From Cytobacillus kochii (GTDB lineage: Bacteria; Bacillota; Bacilli; Bacillales; Cytobacillaceae), in assembly GCF_020171845.1 (NCBI RefSeq), contig NZ_JAIVAM010000009.1, positions 248,001 through 312,000 on the forward strand: DNA of 64,000 bases, in the 5' to 3' direction. The translations under genes and the position numbers were made by a program. Position 1 is the first letter of the stretch. Each line of letters opens with the position of its first letter. The notes under the pieces are model-generated. The model was not told the DNA's origin. It saw only the letters and a program-made list of their open reading frames with translations, and did no database searches. Shown piece after piece: positions 52,401 through 56,497 of the stretch.

Positions 52401-53783
52401 ATGAAAAAGGTAATTTCTATTCTTTTTGTTATCATTATTCTCTGTATATTTTTTAATCAATGGGATCAATTCATAGCAGATGAGCAAACTGTCAATGCAC
52501 AAGAAAGTGCACAATCAAAAGTTACCATTCATTCAGATGAAAAATCTGTCCAAGTCTTTCAAACAATTTCTAGTTTATCTGACAAATCCATTTACGAAAT
52601 AATCGTACCGGAGAAAGCTTCAAATTGGACATGTACATATAATGATAAAGATGAGTGTAAAAGAGTTTGGCGAGCTGAAAACATTATAGAGACTAAAGGT
52701 AGTCAGTTACATATTACCTATAGTTTGCCTCTGAATAAAAAGACTAACACTTTGATTCGTGATTGGTTATTTCAATTAAAAGGTGTCACTATAGATCATG
52801 TGGAATTAAAAATCATTGAATCTCACCATCGAAATGGAAAGTGGCTGGCTGGTATTCCATTATCTGGGTTCGTAAAAGAGGATCTAATAGATTATTACTT
52901 CTTTTCTGGTAAGACCAACAATCCGGCACTGCTTTGGTATAATGAAGACATAAACACCGAGCGAAACGAAACGTATTATTCGTACTATGGTGATCACTAT
53001 CCTGAGATCAAAGAACTGATACAAAAACATGAAGAAAAGGTAAAAGAAGCAAACTTTTTAAGTATCATTACAACTAATCAGTTAAAAAGTGGTCTATTTG
53101 GAGGCATTCTCATACTACCAATTGGGGAGTTATTAGAAAGAGAATTAGTAGACGCTCTCTATTTCCATTCTATTGAAAGTGAAGAAATAGAATGGTTCTT
53201 GGATTTGTTAACCTCATTTATTATTGATGAAAATCCTCGGTTTGATCTAAGTATGTATGCTTTTAATGAACTAAAAGAAAAGCTAACTTCAAGTGAGTTG
53301 GAGCAGCTTGTTGCCAGTATTTCCGACTTGGATGAAAGTTTCGTACCAGAAGATATGGATGAGATACTTTATCAAATAACGGGAAAACAAACGAACTTCT
53401 TTGCTGAATTAGTAAGGAATAAACAACCGGTTTCTTTAGAATTATATACAATGAAAGATTATCATTGGAATAATAAAAAATTAACTGTGAAAATAATTGA
53501 AATTGATGGAATAGAGTGGGTACCTCTACAAAAGACAATGTCATTCCTCGAGTTTGAAACAGAGCGTTTATCTGAAACGGAATGGGCAATCTTTAATGAC
53601 AAAGATGTTTATCGTTTATATTCAGACCAGTCGATTTTTATAAGAAACGAAGAGGTGTTTGGCTTGCTAGAACATCCACTGAAACAGATGAATGGAGAGT
53701 ATTATTTAGAAAAAAAATGGCTCCAGTCTATCTTTCAGATAAACTTGAGAGAAGAGGGTAATAAAGTTTATTTTGACATGTAA
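52401..53783 (+). CDS. Exported stalk-domain protein
   Basis: A 460-residue exported protein: N-terminal hydrophobic helix (about 4-20) as signal or anchor, a beta-rich part (about 40-130), a helical middle, and a C-terminal region (about 365-460; WVPLQKTMSFLEFE, YYLEKKWLQSIFQINLREEGNKVYF) that looks like the copper-amine-oxidase-N-like stalk repeat found in Bacillus surface proteins. No catalytic motif seen. ATG 52401 with AAGGGAG upstream. Role unknown; no close B. subtilis neighbour gene to compare. Confidence 0.7.
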   Translation: MKKVISILFVIIILCIFFNQWDQFIADEQTVNAQESAQSKVTIHSDEKSVQVFQTISSLSDKSIYEIIVPEKASNWTCTYNDKDECKRVWRAENIIETKGSQLHITYSLPLNKKTNTLIRDWLFQLKGVTIDHVELKIIESHHRNGKWLAGIPLSGFVKEDLIDYYFFSGKTNNPALLWYNEDINTERNETYYSYYGDHYPEIKELIQKHEEKVKEANFLSIITTNQLKSGLFGGILILPIGELLERELVDALYFHSIESEEIEWFLDLLTSFIIDENPRFDLSMYAFNELKEKLTSSELEQLVASISDLDESFVPEDMDEILYQITGKQTNFFAELVRNKQPVSLELYTMKDYHWNNKKLTVKIIEIDGIEWVPLQKTMSFLEFETERLSETEWAIFNDKDVYRLYSDQSIFIRNEEVFGLLEHPLKQMNGEYYLEKKWLQSIFQINLREEGNKVYFDM

Positions 53784-53846
53784 AAGGAAAGCATGTGTGG
53801 AATTTATAGAATCATTCCTATTTGAATGAGTTCACCGTCGATAAAA

Positions 53847-53879
53847 ATAAAAAATCCCTGTAGCAAAAAACCTACAGGG
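53847..53879 (-). terminator. Minus-strand terminator of the rsmD-upstream RNA
   Basis: 8-bp stem CCCTGTAG (53856-53863) / CTACAGGG (53872-53879). Read on the minus strand it is followed by ATTTTTTATTTTTAT; on the plus strand by TCCTTCC. No annotated minus-strand gene ends here. Confidence 0.8.
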
Positions 53880-54000
53880 TCCTTCCAACCATCTAATAGG
53901 CAGAAGGTAAAGGGAGAGGAGAAACCGGAGGAAGAACTTATGGGGAAACGTAAGTCTTCTCCGCGGTTGGCAACAACATCGTTTAGATGCTGTTAATTTC
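53847..54000 (-). ncRNA. Structured RNA upstream of rsmD, probably a minus-strand sRNA
   Basis: Stems: AACAGCATC / GATGTTGTT (53994-53972), a long bulged stem enclosing 53927-53962, an outer CCAACC / GGTTGG (53965-53970 with 53885-53890), and a terminator CCCTGTAG / CTACAGGG (53856-53879) whose T run lies only on the minus strand. The first stem has a G-U pair on the minus strand but an A-C mismatch on the plus strand. A motif upstream of ylbH (rsmD) was described in comparative surveys as the ylbH leader; identity with it is from memory. Confidence 0.55.
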
Positions 54001-54141
54001 ATTATCTCCATATAAGACATTGTTATACATTTTTATTCGGCATCTCTTGAAATACTTAGGAGAATATGAGTTTGTTTCCTATAAAAAGTATGGTAGGATG
54101 ATGAAGAAAAATTGAATTTAGAATAAGTGGTGAGTAGTAGT

Positions 54142-54705
54142 ATGCGGGTAGTATCTGGTCAATATAAAGGACTGCAACTTAAAGCCGTTCCTGGCAAATC
54201 AACAAGACCAACAACTGATAAAGTAAAAGAAGCAATCTTTAATATGATAGGACCCTATTTTGATGGTGGCATTGCCCTTGATTTGTTCGCTGGAAGTGGT
54301 GGCCTTGGGATTGAGTCATTAAGTAGAGGTGTAGAAAAAGCGATTTTCGTTGATCGTGATAGCAAGGCAATACATACAGTACATGAAAATTTACGAATTT
54401 GTAAAATCGAAAAAGGCGTTGAAGTTTATAGAAATGACGCAGAAAGAGCTTTAAAAGCCATTATGAAAAGGGAGTTGCAATTTGATTATATCTTCCTTGA
54501 TCCACCTTACAAAAAGCAGCAACTCGTTAAATTGTTAGAAATCATTAGTCAACAGAAGTTACTAAAGCAAAGTGGCATTATAATGTGTGAACATAGCTCG
54601 GATATACAATTACCCACATTATGCGGGGACTTAGAACAAGTAAAGTATGAAAGCTATGGTATCATTGCTGTTTCCATTTATCGTTATATTGTACCTAATG
54701 AATAA
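54142..54705 (+). CDS. rsmD: 16S rRNA (guanine966-N2)-methyltransferase RsmD (YlbH)
   Basis: SAM-dependent methyltransferase acting on 16S rRNA in the 30S subunit. 187 residues: the start MRVVSGQYKGLQLKAVPG and the TRPTTDKVKEAIFN block, the SAM motif LDLFAGSGGLGIESLSRG (about 50-67) and the catalytic LDPPYKK (D120-Y123). ATG 54142 with GTGGTGA upstream. It is 23 bases before coaD, as in B. subtilis (ylbH-ylbI). Confidence 0.93.
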   Translation: MRVVSGQYKGLQLKAVPGKSTRPTTDKVKEAIFNMIGPYFDGGIALDLFAGSGGLGIESLSRGVEKAIFVDRDSKAIHTVHENLRICKIEKGVEVYRNDAERALKAIMKRELQFDYIFLDPPYKKQQLVKLLEIISQQKLLKQSGIIMCEHSSDIQLPTLCGDLEQVKYESYGIIAVSIYRYIVPNE

Positions 54706-54710
54706 ATTAG

Positions 54711-55211
<501 letters not shown>

Positions 55212-55282: not shown

Positions 55283-56497
55283 CTAATGGGAAAGAAAATG
55301 CCTACGGTAGTAGATGAAAATATATAAAATAAGAGAAAATAAAGTAATGAGAGGTCCAAGTGTTATCATGTAATCATATATGGTAAATGCTTCGCTTTGA
55401 AAAACGGGTATAGCGTTAGATGGTTGCTCAAATGACACGCGGTCGTAGAGTAAATGCCAAAAAAGATAGGCGTAAAAAGCTGCAATAAATGAATGAATAA
55501 TTCGAGCGATGAAAAATGGCTTAAAACGAATATCGGATTGAGCGATAATGCTTGCGACTTGTGATTGAACACTAAATCCACAGAAGGCCAAGATAGCACT
55601 TGCAATCATTACTTGTTGTAACAACGGAACATGATCGACTTGAGCAGTCATCTGATTTCCTTGAGTCAGTTCAAAAATGCCAGAAAATAAAGCTTTACTA
55701 AAATCAGGGGAGATTTGGAAAATAGATAATAAAAAACCGAGCCCATGAGCGAAAAAGTCTGTAATGCCGATGTGGAATAATAATTTATTTATGACCGAAA
55801 ATAAAATAATAAAGCCACCGATCATTAATAAAGTATGGATAGAAGATATTACAGCATCACCAACAAGTTTTCCTAATGGACGCTGTTCTTGTAATCTTGT
55901 TTCGTGTAAGACATTAAATGCTTCCTTAAATGAAAATTTCCGCGCGGGGGGCGTCGCTATCTTAGTGTTCTTCTTTTCTTCCTTTCGTCCGTAAAAACGC
56001 ATGATAAAACCTACAGTTAAATTACCAAGATAATGGGCTAAAGCAAGGATAATCCCTAATTTTGTATTATGAAAGAAACCAACAGACACCGCGCCAAAAA
56101 TAAACAAGGGATTGGAACAGTTAGAGAAGGAAACAAGTCGCTCTGCTTCCAGACGTGATATTTGTTTCTCTTGTCTTAATCTTACAGTGAACTTTGCTCC
56201 AGCCGGATAACCAGATGCCATTCCCATGGCTAATACAAAGCCGCCAACACCTGGTACTCTGAATAGTGGTCGCATGAGAGGTTCTAATAGTACACCAATA
56301 AATTTTACTACACCAAAACCGATTAAAACCTCGGCTATAATAAAAAATGGTAATAGGGAAGGAAAAACAATCTCCCACCACATTTCGAGGCCCCTTCTCG
56401 ATGCATCAACGGATTCTTGTGGATATAATATAAGTGAAACGGCGATTAATGATGCCGAAAGTGCAAGCATGACTGTTTTTAACTTTGAACGTGACAC
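55283..56497 (-). CDS. ylbJ: Sporulation membrane protein YlbJ (SpoVV)
   Basis: A 404-residue polytopic membrane protein with about 10 helices, of the nucleoside-recognition (Gate) domain family. Blocks: VFPSLLPFFIIAEVLIGFGVVKF, GMASGYPAGAKFTVRLRQEKQIS and AFCGFSVQSQVASIIAQSDIRF. In Bacillus, YlbJ/SpoVV is made in the mother cell and moves dipicolinic acid through the outer forespore membrane. Loss gives heat-sensitive spores. ATG 56497 with GGGAGG on the minus strand. The clearest spore-forming marker in the window. Confidence 0.92.
   Translation of the reverse strand: MSRSKLKTVMLALSASLIAVSLILYPQESVDASRRGLEMWWEIVFPSLLPFFIIAEVLIGFGVVKFIGVLLEPLMRPLFRVPGVGGFVLAMGMASGYPAGAKFTVRLRQEKQISRLEAERLVSFSNCSNPLFIFGAVSVGFFHNTKLGIILALAHYLGNLTVGFIMRFYGRKEEKKNTKIATPPARKFSFKEAFNVLHETRLQEQRPLGKLVGDAVISSIHTLLMIGGFIILFSVINKLLFHIGITDFFAHGLGFLLSIFQISPDFSKALFSGIFELTQGNQMTAQVDHVPLLQQVMIASAILAFCGFSVQSQVASIIAQSDIRFKPFFIARIIHSFIAAFYAYLFWHLLYDRVSFEQPSNAIPVFQSEAFTIYDYMITLGPLITLFSLILYIFIYYRRHFLSH

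Follow-up and report, generated by a model that had tools for sequence, protein, structure and literature searches.

The 64,000 nucleotides of Cytobacillus kochii DNA analysed here, referred to as the window, contain a structured intergenic stretch upstream of rsmD (ylbH). RF00516, the "ylbH leader" of Rfam, is the only family matched at gathering level by cmscan on either strand of the whole window, and this match (100.8 bits) bears out the suggestion of an earlier sequence-only reading of this DNA that the locus might be the motif once described as the ylbH leader. On the minus strand at the element, no Rfam family reached the gathering threshold in cmscan. The locus is organised as follows:

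52401-53783, plus strand: 460-aa gene without Pfam match (ORF list, Pfam)
53846..53966, plus strand: RF00516 "ylbH leader" match, antisense to csfG (cmscan, 100.8 bits, gathering threshold 50)
53848..53994, minus strand: csfG sRNA, about 147 nt, with start predicted from the promoter and end from the terminator; RF00516 match on the opposite strand
53846..53879, minus strand: intrinsic terminator, stem 53879-53856 followed by a T-rich tail (terminator search)
53881..53907, minus strand: third stem, whose G-U pairs become A-C mismatches in the plus-strand RNA (sequence, cmscan, alignment)
53908..53925, minus strand: unpaired CU-rich linker with almost no variation, which probably serves for pairing (invariant alignment columns)
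53926..53963, minus strand: central hairpin with loop CGTTTCCCCA, nearly invariant in 49 sequences
53972..53994, minus strand: 5' hairpin AACAGCATC/GATGTTGTT, outside the RF00516 match (A-U, G-U and G-C exchanges, 49 sequences)
54001..54009, minus strand: -10-like element GGAGATAAT, spacer of 14 (sequence, pattern, matrix)
54024..54028, minus strand: -35-like element GTATA of a sigma-F/G-type promoter (sequence; recurs across loci)
54127..54705, plus strand: rsmD (ylbH), ATG at 54142, PF03602, read away from csfG (ORF list, Pfam)

The rsmD gene starts about 130 nt beyond the predicted start of csfG, and its ATG lies 176 nt downstream of the RF00516 match. The minus-strand promoter at 54028-54001 falls just outside the stretch covered by the sequence-only reading, and its elements are classed as sigma-F/G-type on what we take to be the consensus of these sigma factors. 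CsfG itself is reportedly an sRNA of Bacillus subtilis, described by Marchais et al. in 2011. We regard it as nearly certain, as far as identity and strand are concerned, that this structured stretch encodes CsfG, transcribed from the minus strand and divergently from rsmD; RF00516 models the strand opposite to its transcript.

This reassignment is already known from two B. subtilis studies, which appeared in 2011 and 2013. The ylbH leader goes back to Barrick et al. 2004, as cited by Dambach, Irnov and Winkler 2013 (PMC3574147), and according to the passages of the latter study on this locus, a B. subtilis northern blot found the leader strand silent and its reverse complement strong. The same passages assign an Hfq-bound peak of 136 nt within ylbG-ylbH, at the orphan riboswitch upstream of ylbH, to the CsfG of Marchais et al. 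2011 and not to the leader, and describe the CU-rich stretches of CsfG as highly conserved and located in loops or between helices (PMC3574147). CsfG is listed among antisense RNAs at ylbG/ylbH in RNA-seq of B. licheniformis (PMC3871023), and is described as under sigma-F and sigma-G control in the forespore (PMC9147052, PMC8216469), with expression also under some non-forespore conditions according to citing papers. The transcript S547 is given as a homologue of Bvs196 in one of the two papers PMC9147052 and PMC8216469 and as CsfG in the other, so that the two papers contradict each other on this point. The sequence-only reading had proposed that the sense strand of the leader may have been misread and that the RNA would be made divergently from rsmD. 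Both proposals agree with the reported northern (PMC3574147), with the promoter, terminator and pair changes on the minus strand described below, and with the placement of csfG on the minus and rsmD on the plus strand; the reinterpretation was thus correct, but its presentation as a possible new reading does not stand, since it had been in print from 2011 and 2013.

The stretch is indeed structured, as that reading had noted, but its hairpins (53994-53972, 53963-53926, 53907-53881 and 53879-53856) lie side by side and do not form three nested stems. Folding energy cannot tell the strand, since both strands fold better than shuffled sequences (z of -3.69 for minus and -3.82 for plus); RNAalifold energies were nearly equal (-29.8 for minus and -28.3 for plus), and both single-strand folding and RNAalifold energy were rejected as non-discriminating tests of strand. 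Between 53000 and 55000 there is a single terminator-like site, which belongs to the minus strand, in agreement with the earlier reading. It consists of the stem 53879-53856 followed by ATTTTTTATT, and is weak evidence alone because 0.8 such sites are expected from shuffles. The accompanying observation that no minus-strand gene needs this terminator was also accurate, the nearest long minus-strand frame upstream ending at 55283.

A comparative set was built from 88 loci around RF00516 matches in relatives and in the class, from which two duplicate fetches and three loci without hit (L086-L088) were removed, leaving 83. The latter three came from relatives in which RF00516 gave an additional, weak hit of 30-31 bits that did not reach the cut-off, and were judged from alignments to be due to chance. 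A loose terminator rule was satisfied on the minus strand in 83/83 loci and on the plus strand in 57/83. Runs of at least five T were present in 78/78 extracted minus-strand transcripts versus 6/78 on the plus strand (28/78 for plus-strand runs of at least four), a count that leans to the minus strand because the 78 transcripts had been chosen by a rule for minus-strand promoter and terminator.

Promoter evidence was gathered with a pattern (GTATA-like, N14-15, GGnnAnAHT) applied to the 90 nt upstream of csfG on the minus strand. Its strict form was found in 55/83 loci and its loose form in 76/83, compared to means of 0.04 and 3.96 in shuffles; when the 83 segments were read on the plus strand, the strict form was found in 0 and the loose form in 5. 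A promoter matrix trained on 47 of these loci was applied to 36 further ones, 16 from the class and 20 from outside it, of which 35 scored above the 95% shuffle level, compared to 4/36 on the plus strand; a few of these 35 sites lie at odd distances from the core. By both minus-strand pattern and matrix, the sigma-F/G-type promoter expected of CsfG is present here.

A G-U pair on one strand is an A-C mismatch on the other, so that pair changes may distinguish the strands, and here they favour the minus strand. The strand-wise check of covariation proposed in the sequence-only reading was carried out on an alignment (A1) of 49 of the 78 extracted transcripts. In the minus-strand structure, which was predicted with G-U allowed, the non-Watson-Crick cells, which are non-independent events, were G-U in 71 cases versus A-C in 21 (13 versus 4 by column), and the predicted plus-strand structure was neutral, with G-U 7 versus A-C 8. 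The clearest pair changes are in the 5' hairpin, where one pair is A-U in 26 sequences of A1, G-U in 13 and G-C in 4; in the central hairpin, one A-U pair changes to G-U in 7 of 49 sequences. Within the window, T53902-G53886 and G53901-T53887 can pair on the minus strand and are A-C on the plus strand, as had been pointed out for one of the stems, and cmscan flags non-standard pairs in the third stem on the plus strand. Conservation of the CU-rich core, a trait of CsfG, was confirmed across the 49 loci of A1.

Orientation relative to rsmD provides further evidence. In 82 of the 83 loci rsmD lies beside csfG, divergently in 79 and with csfG on the rsmD strand in three (L038-L040), which belong to one genus and in which promoter and terminator are flipped along with csfG. 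Among 36 further loci, 34 are divergent, one lacks rsmD (L100) and one is flipped together with its promoter (L122, 1/35 of those with rsmD). A scan for the exact 24-nt core returned at least 118 named stretches; among the 118 listed, 107 are divergent, one is flipped (L158, Bacillus sp. PAMC26568, 1/108 of the listed loci with rsmD) and 10 are without rsmD, 3 of which have the core at the end of the stretch. A sixth and last flipped locus, L298, is found outside the Bacilli (1/95 loci with rsmD). By eye, the flipped copies of L158 and L298 keep promoter, core and terminator. A leader cannot undergo such a flip and retain both function and sequence, as an autonomous sRNA gene can, so that these flips fit an sRNA gene. 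With six flipped loci, and with 9/104 non-Bacilli loci in which rsmD was not found nearby, the rule "always sense to and upstream of rsmD", though true in the window, fails for RF00516 overall.

RF00516 is present in 61/61 relatives. Across 299 genomes of the class it was found in 183 and SpoIVA in 211, and cross-tabulation by hand gave 182 genomes with both, 1 with the RNA only, 29 with SpoIVA only and 87 with neither. The restriction of CsfG to endospore formers therefore holds in the class (182/183 RF00516 genomes with SpoIVA), the sole RNA-only genome (G278) lacking the core and matching RF00516 only weakly (E 2.0e-4). When three mismatches were tolerated, the core was still absent from G278, from 20 searched of the 87 genomes with neither, and from 28 of the 29 SpoIVA-only genomes (it was found in G302), two of these 28 having weak SpoIVA matches (G062 and G345). 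The occurrence of SpoIVA without the core implies that not every spore former needs CsfG. A single family, f33, accounts for 19 of the 29 SpoIVA-only genomes (one with a weak match), the core being absent from all 19, and may sporulate without CsfG.

At the level of the phylum, an RF00516 match was obtained in 115/299 genomes, 8 of them above the cut-off. All 108 of these lying outside the class were analysed at the locus: 76 have the 24-nt core without mismatch, 26 with one to three mismatches and 2 with four; the remaining 4 are without ungapped core, one of them (L317) having the core minus one base. The named core loci listed include Alicyclobacillus, Brevibacillus, Thermoactinomycetaceae, Clostridia bins and Fuchsiella. 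An exact core with divergent rsmD and no RF00516 match at E 0.01 is also seen in metagenome-assembled genomes labelled Acetobacteraceae (L207) and Desulfovibrio (L208), names that do not belong to the Bacillota; these are probably mis-binned contigs. A literature search on CsfG returned no paper on its range outside the Bacilli; Marchais et al. 2011, which was outside this search, may describe it.

A core with no more than four mismatches is present in 104 non-Bacilli loci; 94 of these have rsmD in divergent orientation, one (L298) is flipped, and 9 showed no rsmD, one of which (L355) is at a contig end. Within 1500 nt on the far side, tblastn detected a codirectional gpr gene in 27/104, an alpha/beta SASP gene in 34/104 and either in 58/104, GPR identity having been checked with Pfam (PF03418) in L192 only. 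Genes for GPR, the germination protease, downstream of csfG and on the same strand are seen in L192, L209, L215, L224, L227, L230, L243 and L270, and alpha/beta SASP genes convergent to csfG on the far side in L090, L101-L107 and others. In L192, gpr begins only about 20 nt past the csfG terminator, and may hence be transcribed by readthrough from csfG. A control set of 19 genomes comprised 16 without RF00516 match and 3 with a match lacking the ungapped core. Four of the 19 were found to have a csfG-like core, i.e. L374, L387 and L390 among the 16, and L376, which is the L317 locus; RF00516 thus misses copies, in 3/16 match-less genomes. In the remaining 15 csfG-less controls, 4 of which are without SpoIVA, gpr or SASP genes are beside rsmD in 5. 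This neighbourhood was therefore dropped as proof of a functional pair, being a feature of the locus that also occurs without csfG.

These data allow other readings of the stretch to be weighed. The reading implied by the Rfam name, namely that the plus strand carries a cis-acting 5' leader of rsmD, has in its favour the match itself with the rsmD ATG 176 nt downstream, a position beside rsmD that is widely kept, and a plus strand that folds as well as the minus strand. Two plus-strand promoter-like sites upstream of the element (53445-53474 and 53745-53774, 9/12 each) are within chance, because the region 53000-55000 holds 5 sigma-70 promoter-like sites compared to 8.0 expected. The same region has no terminator-like site on the plus strand, the strand gave a negative northern in B. 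subtilis according to the pertinent passages of PMC3574147, and both the six flipped loci and the pair changes argue against it; under the minus structure these changes read A-C in plus-strand RNA, and under the plus structure they favour neither strand (7 to 8). Sigma-A-like sites between csfG and rsmD occur in 17/79 loci versus 25 in shuffles, so that this interval bears no sign of a leader or of a promoter for one, and a sigma-A promoter for rsmD within it was rejected for lack of excess over shuffles. We consider a leader of rsmD extremely improbable, and the same holds for a small protein encoded on the minus strand. The 62-aa frame at 53832-54020 does span the stretch; its first ATG, however, lies between the -35 and -10 elements, ahead of the predicted transcript start, the frame is without Pfam match, and gaps of 1 and 2 nt in the conserved hairpin of L051, L052 and L067 indicate that it is not conserved.

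Less far-fetched, though still unlikely, is an additional role of CsfG in cis, in which it would act as an antisense RNA on rsmD or on its other neighbour, or interfere with the promoter of either. Such a role would fit the divergent placement kept from Bacilli to Clostridia and the SASP or gpr genes that 58/104 non-Bacilli loci have no more than 1500 nt downstream. Against it stand the 9/104 non-Bacilli loci in which rsmD was not found beside csfG and the flips elsewhere, the presence of gpr/SASP genes beside rsmD in 5/15 csfG-less genomes, and the distance in the window, where rsmD starts about 130 nt past the predicted csfG start. CsfG is likely trans-acting; the divergence from rsmD across the phylum (94/104 non-Bacilli core loci) is counter-evidence to this main reading, because an RNA working in trans alone could do without it.

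For a trans-acting CsfG, the mode of action that we find likeliest, while giving it somewhat less than even odds, is pairing with forespore translation starts. As proposed for the C-rich regions of RoxS, the CU-rich stretches would bind purine-rich sequence at the translation starts of mRNAs in the forespore, which would then be translated less, a scheme that we put forward as plausible rather than probable. A conserved protein partner of the core may be an alternative. Shine-Dalgarno pairing of the core with 49 translation starts of the window was strong, but 52/200 shuffled cores did as well, and a search of 9 genomes for targets by near-complement of the core gave no consistent excess over the reversed pattern (24 versus 6 in G219, 4 versus 9 in G582). 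In the genome that holds the window, GGAAGAAGAGAAACCGG recurs in four near-copies spaced 60 or 120 nt apart at G000:C11:205955-206211, perhaps a repetitive coding region. In their passages on CsfG, papers of 2021 and 2022 describe it as without known mRNA target (PMC8216469, PMC9147052), and a 2025 paper refers in passing to mRNAs regulated by CsfG, none of which is named in that passage (PMC12456014).

The exact core also occurs in two viral contigs of IMG/VR (L276 and L277), and two further core patterns yielded no additional contigs there. A csfG-like element follows a complete tyrosine integrase gene (PF00589) at a distance of 100 nt in L277 (1350-1680), and the end of an integrase gene in L276 (5760-6090); cmscan scores for RF00516 are below the cut-off in both (38.7 bits for L277, 31.0 bits for L276). 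In both phage contigs the element is flanked by GCGCACA-rich repeats of 34 and 33 nt, 242 nt apart, and the arrangement looks, from its sequence, like an attP carrying the csfG core. Genes for tRNAs serve as bacterial attachment sites for phages. A search for prophages at csfG found no related integrase at any of the 118 core loci listed (tblastn, E 1e-4), the 5 related integrases detected in 398 genomes (E 1e-60) had no core nearby and no bacterial junction was found, and a search for further phages with the L277-type integrase returned the same contig only. It is tempting to speculate that spore formers have had CsfG since ancient times and that its near-invariant core, kept from Bacilli to Clostridia, is used by temperate phages as a bacterial attachment site, a proposal that we advance tentatively.

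As for annotation, Rfam release 15 still gives RF00516 the type of a cis-regulatory leader and models the reverse of the transcribed strand. The element is listed as a cis-regulatory motif in one transcriptome paper (PMC4342826); in another, the pertinent passage reports the leader as undetected and attributes this tentatively to low expression (PMC4634765), although a search on the wrong strand would have had the same outcome. The strand question is closed, and the uncorrected Rfam entry has been carried into both papers, as seen in their passages on this element.

Among known systems, RoxS/RsaE and FsrA, likened to CsfG in PMC4409812 and PMC8216469, also have C-rich unpaired regions that could pair with Shine-Dalgarno sequences, RoxS pairing with a ribosome-binding site via one C-rich region according to the relevant part of PMC4409812; they differ from CsfG by their regulators (ResDE, Fur). 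RF00516 covers the same DNA (100.8 bits), but on the opposite strand, as a cis-regulatory leader, and ends before the 5' hairpin 53994-53972. In the RNA itself, no difference from B. subtilis CsfG, as known from citing papers, was found; the surroundings differ in that the window has DUF7147 and 460-aa genes between the DUF2129 (ylbG-like) gene and csfG. The locus of the window shares with B. subtilis CsfG its intergenic place upstream of rsmD/ylbH, its strand, CU-rich core, sigma-F/G-type promoter and terminator.
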